Shown: piece after piece, positions 1-31,929 of the stretch | Numbering within the stretch: the first letter of the stretch is position 1 | Layout: each line of letters opens with the position of its first letter | IMG/VR virus record: IMGVR_UViG_3300021170_000010 | Location: 38,900 to 102,899 of that record | Origin: a virus | Direction: 5' to 3' (one strand) | Length of the DNA stretch: 64,000 bases | Position numbers and translations under genes: made by a program | The notes under the pieces: generated by a model | Databases searched by the model: none | The model's input: only the letters and a program-made list of their open reading frames with translations | What the model was told of the DNA's origin: nothing

Positions 1-518
1 CTGCTGCTCACGAGCCGCAGGTCCGGCCTCTGATCGAGCAGCGTGTCTATAGCCGGATCTACCGCCTTCGTACGGTCCCACCGGCCTAAGATCGCGAAGT
101 CGAGGTGTTCTCGGATCTTGAGCCAGAGTTGCCGCTTGTACGGCGCTCCGTGCTTCTCGTCGCGAATCCAGTAGGCTCCGTCTGCGAGTTCGCGGTGCGT
201 GTAGCCGGAGAAAATTCCGACGCTAAAGTCCGGACGGTATGCCTTGACCGCCAGGATCAGCGCGAGGAGTTCGTCGGCCTGCTGCATCGGTTCGCCGCCC
301 GACACGGTGATTCCCTTTGTGCCGACGGCGCAGTGAAGGATGATGTGCCGCGCGAGCGCCTGCGACTCCCAGAGCGTTCCGCCGGAGAGCGGATGCGTGG
401 CGGGATTGTGGCAGCCGGGGCAGTTGAGCGAGCAGCCTTGCAGCCAAATGCAGGTCCGTAACTCTGGGCCGTTGGCGCGCGTTCCGTGAAGGATCGCGTT
501 CTGGTGGATACGGATCAT
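1..518 (-). CDS. Radical-SAM activase, NrdG-like (partial, 3' end outside window)
   Basis: The first 172 codons are visible and the gene runs off the window edge. The N-terminal half has the three-cysteine 4Fe-4S motif GCSLNCPGCHNP (CxxxCxxC), followed by the TVSGGEPM strand-loop typical of radical-SAM proteins. The CHNP form fits the short anaerobic ribonucleotide reductase activases (NrdG and single-cluster relatives) better than QueE. Such proteins cleave S-adenosylmethionine to make a radical, usually on a partner enzyme. No NrdD partner lies in the window, so the substrate is unknown. The ATG overlaps the stop of the upstream gene by ATGA, marking the same leftward operon. Confidence 0.8.
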   Translation of the reverse strand, partial: MIRIHQNAILHGTRANGPELRTCIWLQGCSLNCPGCHNPATHPLSGGTLWESQALARHIILHCAVGTKGITVSGGEPMQQADELLALILAVKAYRPDFSVGIFSGYTHRELADGAYWIRDEKHGAPYKRQLWLKIREHLDFAILGRWDRTKAVDPAIDTLLDQRPDLRLVSS

Positions 519-706
519 TGCGTTCCTTTCGTGGCTACTTCTTCAATGTCGATAAGTTTCTGCGCGTATCGAACGCCGTTAAGCGCTGTGCGTAATTTCT
601 CACGCGCTTCTGCCGTCATATCGTCCTGCTCAATTAAAACGTCTTGAATTCTGGCGGCGGAATCACGAAGTGAAGATGAAGCTCCGTACGCGTCTTGCCA
701 TTTCAT
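515..706 (-). CDS. Hypothetical protein, 63 aa
   Basis: Small, mostly helical, charged protein beginning MKWQDAYGAS with no cysteine pairs or membrane segment. It overlaps the next gene by ATGA and the previous gene by 4 bases, so it is translationally coupled within the leftward operon. No family is recognised. Confidence 0.65.
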   Translation of the reverse strand: MKWQDAYGASSSLRDSAARIQDVLIEQDDMTAEAREKLRTALNGVRYAQKLIDIEEVATKGTQ

Positions 707-1233: not shown

Positions 1234-1532
1234 ACGTCGATTCCTTCCGCGCGCAAGCGCTGCGCTAAATCGCCGCGATTCCATTGAAGGAAGCCATCTA
1301 CCTGATCGGGAAAGCCGATCCGGAGCCGCGCGAGGTTATCGTCGTCAGCTTTCATAATCGCTTGCGCGAGCGCCGTCTGGAAGTCTCCGAGAAGGCCGAA
1401 TTGCCACTTCAGCACGAACTTGGTAGCGTCGGTAAAGTCCGAAGATACGAGAGCCTCGGCGACGCTCTTAGGAATGGTTCTCCCCGGATTCTCCCATGGA
1501 AGAGACAGAGGACGATTAACGAATCCGCTCAT
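1230..1532 (-). CDS. Hypothetical protein, 100 aa
   Basis: Begins MSGFVNRPLS and overlaps both neighbours by 4 bases. No recognisable domain, transmembrane segment or metal-binding cysteine pair. The C-terminal third is helical (WNRGDLAQRLRAEG). It is kept as a real gene because it shares the overlap pattern and codon use of the operon. Confidence 0.65.
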   Translation of the reverse strand: MSGFVNRPLSLPWENPGRTIPKSVAEALVSSDFTDATKFVLKWQFGLLGDFQTALAQAIMKADDDNLARLRIGFPDQVDGFLQWNRGDLAQRLRAEGIDV

Positions 1533-1711
1533 GCTTTCTGGTCCTCCTTCTGCCGGACGACTTCGAGGTACTCCGGCTTGTTGCGAATCGTCTTGGTCTT
1601 GTCGCCTCCGGCGAAGTCGGCAAGAACGCGTTCGCAGCCTTGACCATGAAAATTTTTCAGGTCAATTTCCGATTCGCCCTCTTCATCTACGGTGATGCTG
1701 ATCTCTTTCAT
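1529..1711 (-). CDS. DUF2997-like small protein
   Basis: 60 residues. The N-terminal half, MKEISITVDEEGESEIDLKNF followed by HGQGC, matches my memory of DUF2997: a short beta-beta unit then a G-x-S/G-C turn leading into a helix. DUF2997 genes are known to travel with DUF1257 (Ycf35) genes. Here such a gene starts 1.3 kb upstream in the same operon and a Ycf46-like ATPase lies beyond it, which supports the call. Function is unknown. The C-terminal extension (residues 38-60) is charged and helical. Confidence 0.6.
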   Translation of the reverse strand: MKEISITVDEEGESEIDLKNFHGQGCERVLADFAGGDKTKTIRNKPEYLEVVRQKEDQKA

Positions 1712-2591: not shown

Positions 2592-2996
2592 CTATCGCGC
2601 TCCGAAGCGGAGCATCACCTTTCCCTTAACCACTTCTCTTCCGAGAAGGACGTGGCCCTTCGCGCGGGCGACGGCCATGTGGCGCTGGACGGTATACCCC
2701 TGCTTTAACTTCCCCATCCAGGTATCGTCGAATTTAGCGCTATGATCATACGCGGAGATAACGGCCTGATAGGTTCCGTCTGGCTGTTTAGAGAAGCCGA
2801 TATCATTCGACGCGCTAATCCCGGTATTCTGGCGTCTGATTATGATATTAGCCTTCTCGTTTCGCTGGTCTCCGCCGTATCCGTAGAGGGGTTGCGCCTC
2901 GGAATGGACTTCATATTTGAACCCCATGTCATCGAGCGCCGCGCAGAGATACCGTTCATCGCGGATCGTAGTCTCAAAAATTCCATACTTTGACAT
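2592..2996 (-). CDS. DUF1257 (Ycf35-like) protein
   Basis: 134 residues, start MSKYGIFETTIRDE, chosen because AGGAGA lies 9 bases upstream. An in-frame earlier Met would overlap the HNH gene. Family features seen: the opening strand after MSxxxxxxTxIRD, a YGYGGDQR segment, the central NDIGFSKQPDGTYQ match to the family's DIGF-x-x-x-x-DG-x-Y core, and a basic C-terminus ending in KVMLRFGAR. DUF1257/Ycf35 is conserved in cyanobacteria, plastids and many phages or plasmids, and is usually near DUF2997 and a Ycf46 AAA ATPase, as here. Its molecular job is not established. Confidence 0.75.
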   Translation of the reverse strand: MSKYGIFETTIRDERYLCAALDDMGFKYEVHSEAQPLYGYGGDQRNEKANIIIRRQNTGISASNDIGFSKQPDGTYQAVISAYDHSAKFDDTWMGKLKQGYTVQRHMAVARAKGHVLLGREVVKGKVMLRFGAR

Positions 2997-3016
2997 TTTA
3001 CGGTTGTCTCCTATTC

Positions 3017-3457
3017 TTAGTTTGTGGAATTCCAATGGTCTCGTTGCCATTGATTATGGCAGATACTGCAAAATCGGCTACCGCTAGCTGAGTTAATAGA
3101 ATCGTACGGATGGCCGTTTTTGCAATGCGTCTTACGGGCGTTAATAGCTGCTGGAGATTCGCCGCGTTCTTTATTGATTGAGAGAGGCACTGGATCTAGA
3201 TGTGATGGACGAACACATCGTCTATTTCGGCAAAGATGATCAAGCGTTAGACCGTCCGGGATTGGTCCGACGGAAATCTCGTATGAATAGCGATGGGTTA
3301 ATAGCACTCCACGTGGACGACGATTAATTTGGCCATATCCTGTAGCAGCCATAATGTATCCGGTCCATTCCCAACACGCACCTAAGTCCGGCCTTATAAT
3401 CGGTCCATCTTTATTAACGCGCTTCCAGAAGTCCGATTCCGTAGCTCTAGCTGACAT
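3017..3457 (-). CDS. HNH homing-type endonuclease
   Basis: 146 residues. The N-terminal third has CWEWTGYI and a glycine/arginine turn typical of the HNH_3 family. The nuclease core is LDHLCRNRRCVRPSHLDPV, with D-H, two cysteines and the terminal S-H-L-D-P. A C-terminal zinc knuckle HCKNGHPY...FCSICHN (two C/H pairs) probably binds DNA or holds the fold. It sits between the DUF1257 gene and the small zinc-ribbon gene as a free-standing nuclease, a common mobile passenger in phages. All expected core residues are present. Confidence 0.85.
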   Translation of the reverse strand: MSARATESDFWKRVNKDGPIIRPDLGACWEWTGYIMAATGYGQINRRPRGVLLTHRYSYEISVGPIPDGLTLDHLCRNRRCVRPSHLDPVPLSINKERGESPAAINARKTHCKNGHPYDSINSASGSRFCSICHNQWQRDHWNSTN

Positions 3458-3629: not shown

Positions 3630-5162
3630 CTAGCCGTTTACCTCCAGGAGCCGTGCTCCGTGCTGTTCTTCCTGCCGTTTCCGCTCGTACGTTCCCGCGT
3701 AGGAAGCTGAGATGAACTTGCCGTCCGCCTGTTCGCGGAGGCGCTGAATGACATCCGGCGAAGACTTCGCGACCGGAACGATGTAGGCTGATGCTTCGAT
3801 CAGAGAGATCCGGAAGCGGTATGCCGTCTGGCAGCACGTCTGAATCTCCGCACCGGTCCAGTCCTTGTCGGAAGGGATCTTCGCCTGCGCGGACTTCAGT
3901 CCGTACTTGCTGATGTAGAGCTTCCAGATCGCCTTCTTCTCTTCGTCCGTCGGGAGATCGCAGAAGAAAGTTGCGCTCTTGAACCGGCGCTTCATCTCCG
4001 GTGAGAGAGTTCCGAAGCTATTGCACGTCGCGATGACGAGTACGTACCCCTGCGATACGGCGTCGATCACCTTGAACGTCTGGCGCAAGGCGAGTCCGCT
4101 CTCCCCGACGAGGCTAGACTTCATCGCCCCGAGGTCGAACGCGATGGTCGGCTTCTTATGGCTGCCGCCGGTGCATTTGGCGAGCATCGACTTGCCGCTG
4201 CCAGCCGGTCCGATCAGCAGAACGGCCTGAATGTTCTTCCGCTCTCCCATCCACGTCAGGAGCGCTCCGACCATCTCGGTCGATACTCCGGACGTATCGG
4301 TTCCAGCTCCGGCCAGCTGCTTTTCAATTTCGTCAATCCAAACGACGCAGCGCGGCGGGTCCTGTCCGGCCATCATCCGCTCGAAGTACTGGATCGCGTT
4401 GTCCGAGCCGCGCATGTCCGCGAACGTCTCGCCTCCGCGCCAGACCGTCAGGCCCTTCGTCGCTTCGATCATGGACCGCTTCCGGTCCCAGAGGTCGTCG
4501 ATGGCGAGTCCAGCCTTGCTGATCGACTCCGCGCAAGCCTGCTCTGCAGGGAAAGCCGCCAGGCCGGAGATCGCTTCAACCGCGTCTCCGAGATCGTCCG
4601 GCGCTTCGAGTTTCGCGCTCTTGTAGATTAGCCGGACGATAATACCGAGTTGCTTTTCGTCCGGCAGCGGCTCGTCGATCACGCGGACGTCCTGCTGGAT
4701 CTCGGTGGGAAGGTCCATAGCCGGACAGACGAGCACGAGCATCCGTCCGGACGACTTGTAGTAGTCGCGGAGATTCCAGACGGCCTGAGAGACGCCGAGT
4801 TGGCTGATGACGCGGTGGGCGTTCAGGAAGAACGTGATCGCGCCGTTCATCCGCATTCTTCCGCTTTCGTCCGGTTCGCTACCCTGAATCCCCATGAGGA
4901 CCTGGAGCGCCGTGACCGGATCTATGAGTTGATCTGGCATTATTCCTTCCGGCATCCGGAGATCCTTAACAGCCTTCGCTCCGGCTTCTCCGAGTCCGCC
5001 GATGCCGCGCACGATATCCCACTGGATAAACGGCGTTCCGTCTCCGTTGAATAATTCGCGGATGGCCTTGATCGTCGCAGCGGGGTCCGCCGTCTGGACG
5101 CAGACGATGGGTGTGCACGCGGTTCGCGCCGCGCGGAATTGAGTGATGAGAGTCTTCGTCAT
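3630..5162 (-). CDS. Ycf46-like AAA+ ATPase with permuted core
   Basis: 510 residues. The start MTKTLITQF is chosen because of AAAGGAAGG upstream and ATGA coupling to the preceding gene. Residues 1-240 resemble the N-terminal domain of Ycf46-type ATPases (VCVQTADP, an LPTEI...VIDEPLPDE segment). The AAA+ core follows in an unusual order: Walker B segment VVWIDEIEK (273-281) and LLTWMGERK (301-309) first, then Walker A GPAGSGKS (318-325), a LVGESG...R helix (351-360), sensor-1-like IATCNS (377-382) and an arginine-finger-like KRRF (391-394). In ordinary Ycf46 the Walker B block sits between the VGES helix and sensor 1. All motifs look intact, so activity is likely. The substrate is unknown; DUF1257 and DUF2997 neighbours suggest partners. 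Confidence 0.85.
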   Translation of the reverse strand: MTKTLITQFRAARTACTPIVCVQTADPAATIKAIRELFNGDGTPFIQWDIVRGIGGLGEAGAKAVKDLRMPEGIMPDQLIDPVTALQVLMGIQGSEPDESGRMRMNGAITFFLNAHRVISQLGVSQAVWNLRDYYKSSGRMLVLVCPAMDLPTEIQQDVRVIDEPLPDEKQLGIIVRLIYKSAKLEAPDDLGDAVEAISGLAAFPAEQACAESISKAGLAIDDLWDRKRSMIEATKGLTVWRGGETFADMRGSDNAIQYFERMMAGQDPPRCVVWIDEIEKQLAGAGTDTSGVSTEMVGALLTWMGERKNIQAVLLIGPAGSGKSMLAKCTGGSHKKPTIAFDLGAMKSSLVGESGLALRQTFKVIDAVSQGYVLVIATCNSFGTLSPEMKRRFKSATFFCDLPTDEEKKAIWKLYISKYGLKSAQAKIPSDKDWTGAEIQTCCQTAYRFRISLIEASAYIVPVAKSSPDVIQRLREQADGKFISASYAGTYERKRQEEQHGARLLEVNG

Positions 5163-5314
5163 GCGGCCTTCCTTTCTTTCCGCAGAGCCGCCGGATTGCC
5201 GCAGGCGAAGCATTTCGCCGTTGCGGTTCCTTCGCTTGAGACGGTTATCACAGCCGTCGGATGAGAACATTTAACGCACGGCATCAACGTTATCGCGTAC
5301 TTGGTCTTCGTCAT
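5159..5314 (-). CDS. Small zinc-ribbon protein, 51 aa
   Basis: Begins MTKTKYAITLMPCVKC. Two cysteine pairs, CVKC (13-16) and CFAC (39-42), are spaced as in a zinc ribbon. It overlaps the genes on both sides by ATGA, so it is translated with the AAA+ ATPase. The first codons repeat those of the ATPase (MTKTxxxxT). Function unknown; it may be an adaptor or nucleic-acid-binding partner. Confidence 0.65.
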   Translation of the reverse strand: MTKTKYAITLMPCVKCSHPTAVITVSSEGTATAKCFACGNPAALRKERKAA

Positions 5315-10453: not shown

Positions 10454-10654
10454 ATGGAAGCGAGTTCGAAGCGCGGCCCGATGCCGCTCGCCTGTCCGTA
10501 CTGCCGCCGTCCGTTCGCTGAAGAGTTCGTGATCTCCCTATTTTCGAGCTGGCGAAGCCTTAAGCGGAAGGTCTTTAGCGGAGGAAGGCTCGGAGGACGT
10601 CATCCGAAGGGATGCGCGTGCGGGCGCTGCGAGTGGTCGCGCGATGCTACCTAA
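10454..10654 (+). CDS. Small zinc-ribbon protein upstream of TnpB
   Basis: 66 residues with CPYCRRPF (about 15-22) and CACGRCEW near the C-terminus, a split zinc ribbon. It is the first rightward gene of this pocket and overlaps the TnpB start by about 11 bases. Function is unknown. It could be a DNA-binding partner or an unrelated phage gene into whose tail tnpB inserted. Confidence 0.6.
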   Translation: MEASSKRGPMPLACPYCRRPFAEEFVISLFSSWRSLKRKVFSGGRLGGRHPKGCACGRCEWSRDAT

Positions 10655-11780
10655 AATGATCCGCTCGTTCGAGTTCCGATTAAAGCTAACAAAGGCGCAG
10701 TTTCTGGCTTTCGAAGAAATCCTTCGCGATTCCTGCGAGACGTATAATGCCGCGCTCCAGGAGCGTAGGGATGCGTGGAGGATTTGCCGGAAGAAGATTA
10801 CGCTCTATGATCAGTATAATGAATTAACGGAACTGCGCCAAGATCCGCGCTTCGCGACCATTTCCGCTGAAATTCAGCGTGATCCTTTGCGTCGTATCGA
10901 CCGCGCGTTTAAAGCGTTCTTCCGCCGCTGTAAGCGCGGAGAAAAGCCAGGATATCCGCGCTTTAAATCACGCGATCACTACCATTCCTTCGCGTGGGGT
11001 TCTCCAGTTCTAAATCCCGATTCTATCCGTATTCCGAATCTCGGCTTAGTCCGCTATAAGGCCCACCGCCCGCTAGCCGGGACTCCGAAGCAGATCGTCG
11101 TGAAGCGCGTCGGAAAGAAGTGGATCGCGCGGATAGTCTGCGATCTTGGCCCAGCACCGTCGAAGGTGGCCATCTTAAATGCGGTCGGAATCGACCTCGG
11201 ACTGACGACGTTTGCTACGCTTTCGGACGGTTCCGAAGTACCGAATCCGCGCTTCGTTCAGAAGCACGCGCAGTCCATCGCGAGGGCGCAGAAGAATCTG
11301 GCGCGAAAGAAGCGCGGAAGTAAGAACCGGCTCCGCGCGAAAGAATCCGCGCGGCGAGCGTACCAGCGGATGGCGGACGCGCGGAAGAACTTCACGCATT
11401 ACATATCGAAGGAACTCGTGGCGCGGTACGACCTGATCGCGCACGAAGATTTGAAGATCGCGAATATGGCGCGAGGCCACTTCGCGAAGTCTATTTTAGG
11501 AGCGGCGTGGGGACAACTGCTATTTCAGTTAGCGTACAAGGCTGAGAGCGCCGGACGCTACGTGATAGCCGTTAATCCCCGGAATACGTCCCAGATCTGT
11601 TCACAGTGCGGCGCGCTAGTTCGGAAGAAACTCTCCGAACGTCAGCACGTCTGCGCCTGCGGAGCGGACCTGGGACGCGATCATAATGCCGCGATCAACG
11701 TATTGAACCTTGGGCTCGGTAGGAGCCTTGCAGCTGCGCAGGCGGCTTCAGAAGGATCAGTAAAATCCGCTACCCGCTAA
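10644..11780 (+). CDS. tnpB: TnpB RNA-guided nuclease
   Basis: 378 residues, the usual TnpB length. The N-terminal helix-turn-helix/OB region is basic. The RuvC-like site is complete: Asp184 in GIDLG, Glu268 in AHEDL, Asp346 in GRDHNAAIN. The zinc finger CSQCG...CACG lies just before the last Asp. TnpB proteins cut DNA guided by an omega-RNA that normally covers the 3' end of tnpB and the transposon right end. Here the next, convergent gene ends only 6 bases away and no IS200/IS605 ends were seen, so any guide RNA would overlap that gene or come from elsewhere. The start could be 10644 or the Met at 10656. Confidence 0.9.
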   Translation: MLPKMIRSFEFRLKLTKAQFLAFEEILRDSCETYNAALQERRDAWRICRKKITLYDQYNELTELRQDPRFATISAEIQRDPLRRIDRAFKAFFRRCKRGEKPGYPRFKSRDHYHSFAWGSPVLNPDSIRIPNLGLVRYKAHRPLAGTPKQIVVKRVGKKWIARIVCDLGPAPSKVAILNAVGIDLGLTTFATLSDGSEVPNPRFVQKHAQSIARAQKNLARKKRGSKNRLRAKESARRAYQRMADARKNFTHYISKELVARYDLIAHEDLKIANMARGHFAKSILGAAWGQLLFQLAYKAESAGRYVIAVNPRNTSQICSQCGALVRKKLSERQHVCACGADLGRDHNAAINVLNLGLGRSLAAAQAASEGSVKSATR

Positions 11781-28196: not shown

Positions 28197-29296
28197 TCAT
28201 ATTCGGCGCTCCCTATAATCCGTCGCACGCCTGGACCGCAGGATGGGGCGATATCCTCGAAGGCATGCGGAAGACCGGCGAGAGGGTCGAGTTCGATCCT
28301 GCGTGGGATAAGACGGATCGTCCCATCGACTTCGACGCGCCTCTGCTCCAATCGACTCGCGCCATAGACATGCTGCCGACGAAGCCGTATCTTCGGAGCC
28401 GCGCGCGGAACATCGCCCAGTCGGTTCCGTGCGAGCAGTTCATCCTGCGGGACTACATCGCGAACGCGCATCGATACTGGGACCACATCGTGGCCGGATG
28501 CGAATGGTCCGCCGAGATGATACGCTCCGCCGGTTATCATTCGGTCAGCGTGATCACGCACGGCGCGAATACGGAGACGTTCACCCCTGCGGAAGATGAT
28601 AAGCCGCGCGACCGCTTCACTATCTTCTCGGGCGGCAAGATGGAGTGGCGTAAGGGTCAGGACGTCGCGATACAGGCCGTCGGCTACCTGATGCAGAAGT
28701 ACTCCGACGTCGAGTTGATCTTCGACTGGTACAATCCTTGGCCGAAGACTGCGGAGAATATCCGGATGACGCGGCTGTACGCGGATAATCCGGACTTGAG
28801 CACGCACCAGATCATGCGGAAGTGCGGCATTGACTTCGGGCGCGTTCGGACGCTTCAGACCGCCTCGGCTACTCCGGAAGAGCACGTCGCCGATAAACTC
28901 CAGGCGTATCGGCAGAGCGACGTCGGGATCTTCCCGAACCGCGCGGAGGGAACTCCGAACTCGATGATGGTCGATATGATGGCCTGCGCGAAGCCGGTCA
29001 TTGCGCTCTACGCTCACGGTCAGCGCGACGTTCTCGACTACCATCAACCGGTCACTTGCACGGAATCCGACGACCTAGAGATCAGAAGTAAGGAAGACGG
29101 CAAACTCCAGGCCGTGTGGTTCGAGCCGCACGTAGACGAATTCATAGCGAAGCTCGAATGGGCATATCGCCACCGGGACGCGCTACCCGCGCTCGGCGCT
29201 GCGAACCGCGAGCGAATCAAGAAGCACGCTCCGGACGTGATCGGGCGGCAGTACGTGGACGTCTGCTCCGGCGTTGGATTGGAGGTGGCAGCATGA
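28193..29296 (+). CDS. Family 4-type glycosyltransferase
   Basis: 367 residues, GTG start overlapping the previous stop. GT-B fold signatures: VITHGANTETFTP (start of the C-terminal domain), FTIFSGGKMEWRKGQDVAIQ (donor phosphate strand) and FPNRAEGTPNSMMVDMMACA then KPVIA (EGxxN/S variant of the E-x7-E motif). It would move a sugar from a nucleotide donor. Acceptor unknown; the cluster context suggests virion proteins or host surface glycans. Confidence 0.85.
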   Translation: MIIFGAPYNPSHAWTAGWGDILEGMRKTGERVEFDPAWDKTDRPIDFDAPLLQSTRAIDMLPTKPYLRSRARNIAQSVPCEQFILRDYIANAHRYWDHIVAGCEWSAEMIRSAGYHSVSVITHGANTETFTPAEDDKPRDRFTIFSGGKMEWRKGQDVAIQAVGYLMQKYSDVELIFDWYNPWPKTAENIRMTRLYADNPDLSTHQIMRKCGIDFGRVRTLQTASATPEEHVADKLQAYRQSDVGIFPNRAEGTPNSMMVDMMACAKPVIALYAHGQRDVLDYHQPVTCTESDDLEIRSKEDGKLQAVWFEPHVDEFIAKLEWAYRHRDALPALGAANRERIKKHAPDVIGRQYVDVCSGVGLEVAA

Positions 29297-31929
29297 AGAC
29301 CTCTGAACTACTAGCCTGCCACGGCGCTATGAGCACGCTGATGGAAGAACAGAAACTTCAGATAGAGCCTGGAATAAAACAAGGTACGCTTCCTGATATC
29401 CATATTCGTATATCTGCTCTGCTGACCGAGATCGCTCTGCGCAAACCGCAGGAATCCGAACATACGGCGCGGCTCTGGCGCATGGTTCTAGAACTCGATT
29501 CGCAGTCGGCGGAAGCCTATAACGGCATCGGCTATTACGAGCAGTCGCGGAAGAACTGGCTCGAAGCCTCGGCTCTCTTCGGGCGCGCGGCGCAGTTATC
29601 CGATACTCCGCTGGCATTCCTGAACGCTTCTATCGCGCACGATCAACTCGGTAACGTCGATGACGCCATGGTATTCGCGAAAGAAGCTATAGCGCGCGAT
29701 CCGAAGTGCGTCGCGGCGTACGCGCATCTCTACACGCTGTTCGATCAAGAGAATGAACTGGACGCGGCTCGCCAGGTCCTTCTGGACGGTCTAGCGCACT
29801 CTCCGGATTCTCCCGAACTTCTGTTCTGTACCGCCGAACTCGATCTGAAGCAGAGGCGCTACGAGCAGGGATGGAAGAACTACGAGCATCGCGGCACGAT
29901 GGGCACGTCGAGCTTCAGGGGAACGCTCGCGCAACTCCGCAGCGACATGGACGAATATCCGGAATGGACCGGCCAGCCGCTCGAAGGCAAGACCATCGTC
30001 GTGATGCGTGATCAGGGCCTCGGCGACGAGATCATGTTCGCGCGTTATCTGCCCATCCTTAAGGCGCAGGGCGCGACGGTCTGGTTATATACCTATCCGC
30101 GCGCCGCACGCCTCTTGGCCTCGCTAGCCTGCGTAGACGCGGTTTATACGTTTCTGCCGGACATTCCGTGCGAGTTCGACTACTGGGTAGCTATGGGGAG
30201 TCTGGCGCTACGGGCGAATCAGAGGTTAATAAGGTTTTTAGATGATTTCAACGAGTTAGGTCTTTCCGCAGATGAGAAAGACTGGAAAGTACGCGATGAA
30301 ATCTTAACGCCAAAGCGTCTCGAATTCGGACCGTTCCTCAGTTCACGCGTGGTTCGGCAAATCAAGCAATCTTCGAACCTGAAGGTCGGACTCCGCTGGG
30401 CCGGAAATCCCGCTCAAGCGAAGGAGCGCTTTCGCGGTGTTCCGTTCGAATCGCTGAATCCGCTCCTCGACATTCCCGGTATCGACTTCTATTCGCTTCA
30501 GGACGGAGAAGCGGCGAAGCAGTCCGGAGATCTTCTCGTTCATCTAGCGGAATACGGGCATGACGTGGCGGACTGTGCGGCTGCGATCAACGCTCTTGAT
30601 CTCGTAATCACGGTCGATACGATGATCGCGCATCTTGCCGGATCGCTCGGTAAGGACGTCTGGATCATGCTCGGACAGCCTAGCGACTGGCGCTGGGGAA
30701 GCGGACTATCCGGATCGACGCCGTGGTATCCGACTACGCGGCTGTTCCGTAAGAGTGTATGCGACGTGCCGAAGCAGATTAAAGCGGTTCTACGGAACGT
30801 GGTAATGGAGAGGGGTGGCGCAGCGGTAGCGCGCGAGGATCATGACCTTGAGGTCGCGGATTCAAATCCCGTCCCCGCACGGTTCATACCTGTCGGAGAT
30901 TCGTATACGAAAGATGACTGCATAGCTCACGGTAAAGATTACCTAAGCGGTAATCCGGTCTCTATACTACGTGATCTAGTTAAAGAATCAGGCTGTCGTG
31001 TAGACGAAGTATCGTTTACTATCGCTGAAAATTATTGCGCTGAGAATATCGGGATGCAGTTCGATAAAGTTCCTCCAGTGCTGGAACATCCGAATGCTTC
31101 CGTTCCTCCGGAGTTCCGCTATGCGCAGAAGGAGCCGCGCAAGATCGTTCTATGCTTTACAGCCGACTGCCGCTACGGCAAGATGGTCTGGCGCGATAAC
31201 GACTCCTACGTAGGCCGCTCACTCGATCTCTACGGCGAGTACAGCGAAGGCGAAGTGGACGTATTCCGCCGCCTCTTGAAGCCAGGTGATACGGTCATCG
31301 AAGCCGGAGCGAATATCGGCGCGCATACGGTCCCGATTGCTCAGATTCTCGGCTACGGAAACGGTACTAATACGTTAGGCACAGTATACGCCTTCGAGCC
31401 GCAGAAAGAATACTGCCATCTACTCGCAGAGAACGCGCCGTCGAACGTCGATATAACTCTCGCCGCTCTATCCGATTACCAAGGCGAGATCGACGTAGAG
31501 AACGTAGAACTCGAAAAGACGCACGCACCGAACTGGTATGGAGTAGACCGTCCGAACAAAGTTTCATGCATAACTATAGACGCGCTCGACTTCTTAGCGC
31601 TTCACTTCCTGAAGATCGACGTGGACGGCCAGGAGCACGCCATCTTGCGCGGCGGAGAGAAGACCATTGAGAGGCATCGTCCGATTATCTACGTCGAATA
31701 CGACAAGCCGGACTGCTATCCGGACATGATCCTCTGGCTCGACGAGCGCGGCTACCGCGTCTACAAGCACGCCGCGCGGATGTTCAATCTTCAGAACTTT
31801 CGCGGCAACGCGGTCAACGTCTTCGGCGGTCTCGGAAGCACGATGCTGCTCTGCATTCCGAAGGAACGAGCGGACCTGCGGTTCGATACTCTCGGTCTTC
31901 CGCTGGATCGCATGAAGGTTCGGAGATAA
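29293..31929 (+). CDS. TPR - GT9-like glycosyltransferase - FkbM methyltransferase fusion
   Basis: 878 residues, ATG overlapping the previous stop. Residues about 25-215 are TPR repeats (AYNGIGYYEQSRKNWLEASA type). About 240-502 is a heptosyltransferase-like GT9 domain: DQGLGDEIMFARY, LKVGLRWAGNP and LVITVDTMIAHLAGSLGK are its signatures. About 660-830 is FkbM-type: GDTVIEAGANIGAHT, YAFEPQKEY and LKIDVDGQEHAILRGG. The linker at 506-530 is encoded by tRNA-like DNA (see tRNA entry). Each half alone would be a normal-length enzyme. It likely builds and methylates a glycan. Confidence 0.85.
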   Translation: MKTSELLACHGAMSTLMEEQKLQIEPGIKQGTLPDIHIRISALLTEIALRKPQESEHTARLWRMVLELDSQSAEAYNGIGYYEQSRKNWLEASALFGRAAQLSDTPLAFLNASIAHDQLGNVDDAMVFAKEAIARDPKCVAAYAHLYTLFDQENELDAARQVLLDGLAHSPDSPELLFCTAELDLKQRRYEQGWKNYEHRGTMGTSSFRGTLAQLRSDMDEYPEWTGQPLEGKTIVVMRDQGLGDEIMFARYLPILKAQGATVWLYTYPRAARLLASLACVDAVYTFLPDIPCEFDYWVAMGSLALRANQRLIRFLDDFNELGLSADEKDWKVRDEILTPKRLEFGPFLSSRVVRQIKQSSNLKVGLRWAGNPAQAKERFRGVPFESLNPLLDIPGIDFYSLQDGEAAKQSGDLLVHLAEYGHDVADCAAAINALDLVITVDTMIAHLAGSLGKDVWIMLGQPSDWRWGSGLSGSTPWYPTTRLFRKSVCDVPKQIKAVLRNVVMERGGAAVAREDHDLEVADSNPVPARFIPVGDSYTKDDCIAHGKDYLSGNPVSILRDLVKESGCRVDEVSFTIAENYCAENIGMQFDKVPPVLEHPNASVPPEFRYAQKEPRKIVLCFTADCRYGKMVWRDNDSYVGRSLDLYGEYSEGEVDVFRRLLKPGDTVIEAGANIGAHTVPIAQILGYGNGTNTLGTVYAFEPQKEYCHLLAENAPSNVDITLAALSDYQGEIDVENVELEKTHAPNWYGVDRPNKVSCITIDALDFLALHFLKIDVDGQEHAILRGGEKTIERHRPIIYVEYDKPDCYPDMILWLDERGYRVYKHAARMFNLQNFRGNAVNVFGGLGSTMLLCIPKERADLRFDTLGLPLDRMKVRR
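30809..30880 (+). tRNA. tRNA-Met(CAT)-like gene embedded in frame, probably decayed
   Basis: A cloverleaf can be drawn: acceptor AGAGGGG/CCCCGCA, D-arm GCGC-AGCGGTA-GCGC, anticodon stem CGAGG/CCTTG around ATCATGA (anticodon CAT, 30841-30843), variable AGGTC, and T-arm with canonical TTCAAAT loop. Defects are A1xA72, A3xG70, A53xC61 and G37 instead of A37. No CCA is encoded. It is fully inside the glycosyltransferase-methyltransferase gene, which stays open through it. It could be a functional but divergent tRNA or a fossil now used as a protein linker. Confidence 0.65.

Follow-up and report, generated by a model that had tools for sequence, protein, structure and literature searches.

A Ycf46-like AAA+ ATPase family of tailed phages with an internal block swap in its catalytic core

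The ATPase gene and its neighbourhood

The DNA analysed here (the window) is a stretch of 64,000 nucleotides from IMG/VR virus record IMGVR_UViG_3300021170_000010. The record is 102.9 kb in length and contains terminase, portal and major head genes, and is thus attributed to a tailed phage. In the window we identified a gene for a Ycf46-like tandem AAA+ ATPase in which Walker B precedes Walker A; proteins with this order are referred to as permuted, and those with the usual order as canonical. An ATG supported by homology gives a protein of 510 aa; the longest mechanical frame begins at 5270. The gene and its neighbours are as follows.

3..542, minus strand: NrdG-like radical-SAM activase gene, an occasional partner (Pfam Fer4_12, 3.8e-21)
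1529..1711, minus strand: DUF2997-like partner gene (weak Pfam match, 14.9 bits; family assigned by clustering)
2592..3050, minus strand: DUF1257 (Ycf35-like) partner gene (Pfam PF06868, 6.2e-12)
3017..3457, minus strand: HNH endonuclease gene, between the ATPase and partner genes (Pfam HNH_3, 6.9e-10)
3630..5162, minus strand: permuted Ycf46-like tandem AAA+ ATPase gene (510 aa)

Relatives of the DUF1257 gene are present in 90 of 109 permuted loci and DUF2997-like genes, by clustering, in 97, with both found in 89; among canonical phage relatives the corresponding figures are 51 of 64 (DUF1257) and 49 of 64 (DUF2997). A member of the DUF2997-like family in locus L014 scores 56.7 bits. Where both partners are detected by profile, they follow the ATPase gene on one strand, in the order AAA-DUF1257-DUF2997, in 59 of 62 permuted and 46 of 49 canonical phage loci. 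The permuted ATPase therefore holds the same module position as its canonical counterpart, a strong sign, as far as gene order can tell, that it works; it seems to be a functional substitute within a conserved module. A ferredoxin gene adjoins DUF2997 and ycf35 (DUF1257) in cyanobacteria (PMC4284462).

The other neighbours are less regular. The HNH endonuclease cluster occurs in only 6 of 109 permuted loci, and the NrdG-like gene in 12 of 110, as well as in three canonical bacterial loci and one canonical phage locus. A link to anaerobic ribonucleotide reductase through the NrdG-like neighbour was considered and set aside, no NrdD being found in the virus record. Identity with the defence protein IetA, the ATPase of the IetAS anti-phage system, was rejected: the similarity is confined to the AAA+ domain, the NCBIfam score of 35.4 bits is far below the 510-bit equivalog cut-off, and a scan of neighbouring genes revealed no IetS-like protease. 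About 1.8 kb downstream of the permuted ATPase, 45 loci encode unknown small proteins (median frame 117 aa; for example L044:8341-8586 and L064:8429-8695) that carry a motif like ASHVEPxxxGxWxADMSP; the two tested, those of L044 and L064, have no Pfam match. Elsewhere in the window, on the plus strand, are a transposase-family ORF of TnpB-like look (10644..11780; PHROG 506, 4.2e-96) and a gene for a 937-aa protein with a C-terminal methyltransferase match (29116..31929; PHROG 8156). A tRNA-Met call at 30808..30881 falls inside the latter gene, and so may be spurious.

Order of the blocks and predicted fold

The ATPase gene was divided into the following segments, all on the minus strand.

4434..5162: D1, N-terminal, residues 1-243; degenerate AAA+-like domain in canonical order, without Walker A
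4353..4433: linker and helix into D2, residues 244-270; now joined to the Walker B strand (profile columns to 246)
4233..4352: moved block, residues 271-310; strand 3 (Walker B) and helix 3 (canonical columns 324-363)
4320..4346: Walker B VVWIDEIEK, residues 273-281 (homologue alignment)
4050..4232: Walker A block, residues 311-371; strand 1 (Walker A), helix 1, strand 2 and helix 2 (canonical columns 263-324)
4188..4211: Walker A GPAGSGKS, residues 318-325 (homologue alignment)
3690..4049: canonical-order part, residues 372-491; strand 4 with sensor 1 N381, Arg-finger region with R392/R393, strand 5 and the helical lid

The canonical profile represents 51 canonical-order Ycf46-like relatives (50 bacterial proteins and that of mycophage Smooch). 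It matches the ATPase in four blocks: residues 7-261 correspond to columns 5-246 (62.8 bits), residues 271-310 to columns 324-363 (49.3 bits), residues 314-371 to columns 267-324 (51.9 bits) and residues 372-491 to columns 363-496 (55.6 bits). Homology to Ycf46-like AAA+ proteins is therefore full-length (D1, AAA core and C-terminal lid), residues 7-491 being covered at 49-63 bits per block, and the middle two of the four blocks have changed places; in nearly all members the joins span a few residues. Instead of the canonical order Walker A, Walker B, sensor 1, the family has B before A. A sequence-only reading of this DNA had already placed Walker B ahead of Walker A, which the four-block match confirms in that block 271-310 precedes block 311-371; its residue numbers for VVWIDEIEK and GPAGSGKS also hold (VGES is V352-G353-E354-S355, followed by T379-C380-N381), as does its Ycf46-like label, given that the nearest canonical relatives are of Ycf46 type and the best BFVD matches are named ycf46.

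General-purpose profiles respond to the protein in pieces. Pfam AAA scores 53.9 bits (cut-off 21.2) with a best stretch covering only residues 314-366 (profile positions 1-53), and PHROG 8638 matches in four separate stretches; this fragmentation is the signature of a changed block order. The profile of the permuted D2 alignment maps to solved Cdc48 chains in swapped blocks, and every D2 block matches both Cdc48 AAA domains. The solved tandem classical AAA+ rings, p97/Cdc48 and NVL/Rix7, have the same tandem architecture but in canonical order; both of their AAA domains keep Walker motifs. Closer relatives are the canonical Ycf46-like AAA+ proteins of bacteria and of phages SM1, RcKickapoo, RHph_I4 and the Corndog group of mycophages, which are of similar length, homologous throughout and built from the same degenerate N-terminal domain and active AAA+ domain, and most phage members of which share the DUF1257 and DUF2997 neighbours; their D2, however, runs A then B, and that of the permuted family B then A. 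Three canonical-order phage Ycf46-like proteins, L294 (154-2709), L301 and L304, have an insertion of about 275 aa inside Walker A; that of L294, the only one tested, matches intein splicing models.

We modelled the whole protein with AlphaFold2 using 84 homologues (pLDDT 94.1, pTM 0.89), and D2 alone (pLDDT 93.4, pTM 0.88). The predicted D2 elements are, in order, strand 272-276 (Walker B), helix 293-307, strand 311-317 (leading to Walker A), helix 324-334, strand 339-342, helix 352-370, strand 374-380 (sensor 1) and strand 397-400. The Walker B segment is a sheet strand in the model, and helix 352-370, which carries VGES, runs directly into the sensor-1 strand, as the sequence-only reading had described, with no second Walker B-like strand after residue 360; the sheet strand and this absence both speak for that reading. 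Foldseek retrieved the tandem AAA+ relatives p97, Cdc48, Rix7 and NVL, and, in BFVD, Ycf46-type phage proteins. When D2 alone was compared with canonical PDB entries, TM was at most about 0.59 with a large rmsd, which is not proof by itself; a high rmsd is to be expected when an order-dependent aligner meets reordered blocks. In the canonical family D1 and D2 align in canonical order (hhalign probability 93%), and permuted D1 alone aligns weakly with D2 (9%).

Coevolution was analysed in 124 permuted-only sequences (about 110 effective; numbering there is residue minus one). The strongest coevolving strand pairs are 1-5, 3-2 and 3-4, all of which are neighbours in the canonical AAA+ sheet order 5-1-4-3-2, and pairs 3-1 and 3-5 do not rise above background; I276-V376 ranks 13th in strength overall. 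These pairs agree with the sheet order, the strands of which are present by DSSP in the predicted model, and they support a position of strand 3 in its usual place between strands 4 and 2. Couplings compared column by column between the permuted family and the canonical one peaked only weakly at zero shift (rho 0.04), and we have therefore relied on the strand-pair statistics instead.

As coevolution reads contacts within and between subunits alike, the same couplings would also arise if strand 3 and helix 3 completed the core of a neighbouring subunit, giving a segment-swapped ring in which the change of order mainly wires subunits together. The D1-D2 linker now leads into Walker B, and segments so placed come near neighbouring subunits in AAA+ rings. 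However, the monomer model is confident and has the moved block as a sheet strand, and a join to strand 1 of at most a few residues in nearly all members would leave little reach to another subunit. We consider such use in trans very unlikely, and take strand 3 to complete the core of its own subunit.

The sequence-only reading had called the core circularly permuted. The reordering stands, but a true circular permutation does not: the original ends of the domain are not joined and new ones are not opened elsewhere, as in circularly permuted P-loop NTPases. D1, the linker, sensor 1, strand 5 and the lid all keep their canonical places, and the rearrangement is restricted to the strand1-helix3 segment, in which two adjacent internal blocks have been exchanged. 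As judged from the block matches, the REARRANGEMENT is best named an internal block swap, equal to a circular permutation of the strand1-helix3 sub-segment alone. The GTPases RsgA/YjeQ and RbgA/YlqF are circularly permuted, with the order G4-G5-G1-G2-G3 in RsgA (PMC6912228). They too are natural, functional P-loop NTPases with a family-wide change of motif order; in them, however, the permutation is a true one with moved ends, in contrast to the internal AAA+ block swap of the phage ATPase.

Distribution and single origin of the permuted order

B precedes A in each of the 190 family loci that could be classified (110 once redundancy at 90% was removed), and A precedes B in all 136 classifiable other relatives, which comprise bacterial and phage Ycf46-like proteins; among all loci fetched, three truncated frames were of unclear order. 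Most family members come from IMG/VR, and 27 more lie on MAG or single-cell contigs. Several of these contigs carry phage-type genes near the permuted ATPase, and in at least one case (L020 and L102) a MAG or single-cell contig and an IMG/VR record agree in length and range; host assignments based on binning are therefore not to be trusted. A permuted-order relative, gp103, is also encoded by the isolate phage Tunturi_3, the sole phage among 50,697 phage records with a relative covering 80% or more of the protein. The annotation of this relative is just "ATPase", a word absent from the main text of the Tunturi_3 paper (PMC11924767).

These occurrences bear on whether the changed order could be mimicked by mis-assembly, a frameshift, an intein or a gene-model error. 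We found nothing in favour of such an artefact: the intein-like insertions of canonical relatives are extra sequence rather than reordering, the frame is open and uninterrupted, and the four blocks are colinear with tiny joins. That many independent contigs, recovered from different samples, share the order with an isolate genome refutes this explanation, to which we assign a negligible probability.

After removal of sequences with at least 90% identity, 110 permuted and 108 canonical sequences were used for phylogenetic analysis. In the maximum-likelihood tree from all columns the permuted sequences form one exact clade with support 1.0, and the same clade, again with support 1.0, is recovered from 349 columns outside the rearranged region; the canonical proteins that branch nearest to it in the unrooted tree are phage ones. 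This bears out two suggestions of the sequence-only reading, namely that the order marks a distinct phage clade, and that it is a stable permutation and not decay, as all 190 loci share it, they belong to a single clade and their catalytic residues are conserved. On the evidence of the alignments and trees, the permuted family is a separate clade related to Ycf46 rather than an ordinary Ycf46-like member, and the reordering is a stable evolutionary rewiring, in one lineage, of a very conserved fold.

The order would have arisen once in a phage lineage. The simplest route would be for the region coding for strand1-helix3 to be duplicated in tandem and for complementary halves then to be lost; no protein corresponding to the duplicated intermediate was found in a search among relatives. 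We found no earlier description of a permuted AAA+ protein or other permuted P-loop ATPase in a literature search of 5.39 million papers that covered few subscription papers and preprints, so that an earlier mention is possible.

Catalytic residues, proposed activity and significance

Nine residues, E278, K281, G318, G321, K324, G353, T379, N381 and R393, are invariant in the 84 homologues, and D277 and R392 are nearly so, in an alignment with a mean column identity of about 36%. This indicates that the ATPase residues are under strong constraint. Walker A, Walker B, the sensor 1 Asn and the Arg-finger residues are all present, as in the classical AAA clade. One position departs from the usual pattern: 60 of 110 permuted members have Ala, Ser or Cys where a Gly would usually precede the Walker A lysine (e.g. 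GPPGAAKS), in contrast to the canonical relatives listed for comparison, and this may alter nucleotide handling.

A missing Gly at this position in so many members could be taken to mean that the protein is a catalytically weak or regulatory Ycf46 derivative, in which the reordering was tolerated as hydrolysis no longer mattered. This we regard as improbable, given that no change of K324, E278, N381 or R393, and hardly any of D277 or R392, is seen in 84 divergent homologues; moreover, a similar AKS motif is natural to RavA-type ATPases, which are active. An active enzyme is instead what we propose. The three joins would lie in loops at the sheet edge opposite the nucleotide, leaving the folded active site as usual and able to hydrolyse ATP through K324, D277/E278 and N381, with the Arg finger R392/R393 acting on the neighbouring subunit. 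Only three loops would have been rewired, those from the linker to strand 3, from helix 3 to strand 1 and from helix 2 to strand 4.

We conclude that the protein is very probably a Ycf46-like tandem AAA+ ATPase with a degenerate D1 in normal order and an active-site D2 in which strand3-helix3 has been transposed before strand1-helix1-strand2-helix2. Judging by its predicted fold and relatives, it probably acts as a tandem AAA+ remodelling ring, and would assemble into a p97/NVL-like ring that pulls or remodels a client through its pore. In this it may work with the adjacent DUF1257 and DUF2997-like proteins, as canonical phage Ycf46-like proteins appear to; more speculatively, the client could be related to iron-sulphur or radical-SAM proteins.

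Few ATPases are as conserved as AAA+ motors, in which strand connectivity is regarded as a defining trait. It is likely that this internal block swap, fixed once in tailed phages, is the first natural reordering to be described in a catalytic AAA+ core; as D1 and the linker are wired to the Walker B strand rather than to that of the P-loop, with the active site probably left intact, inter-domain coupling may differ from that of all known AAA+ motors. A large phage clade with a rewired yet conserved core indicates that connectivity can change while motif geometry is kept, and offers a natural experiment for the study of folding, of domain coupling and of how P-loop topology evolves. Since canonical-order profiles such as those of Pfam and PHROG match permuted proteins only in fragments, their genes may be under-annotated. 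Through its conserved association with DUF1257 and DUF2997, the ATPase gives access to an uncharacterised module common to phages, bacteria and, in part, cyanobacteria (PMC4284462).
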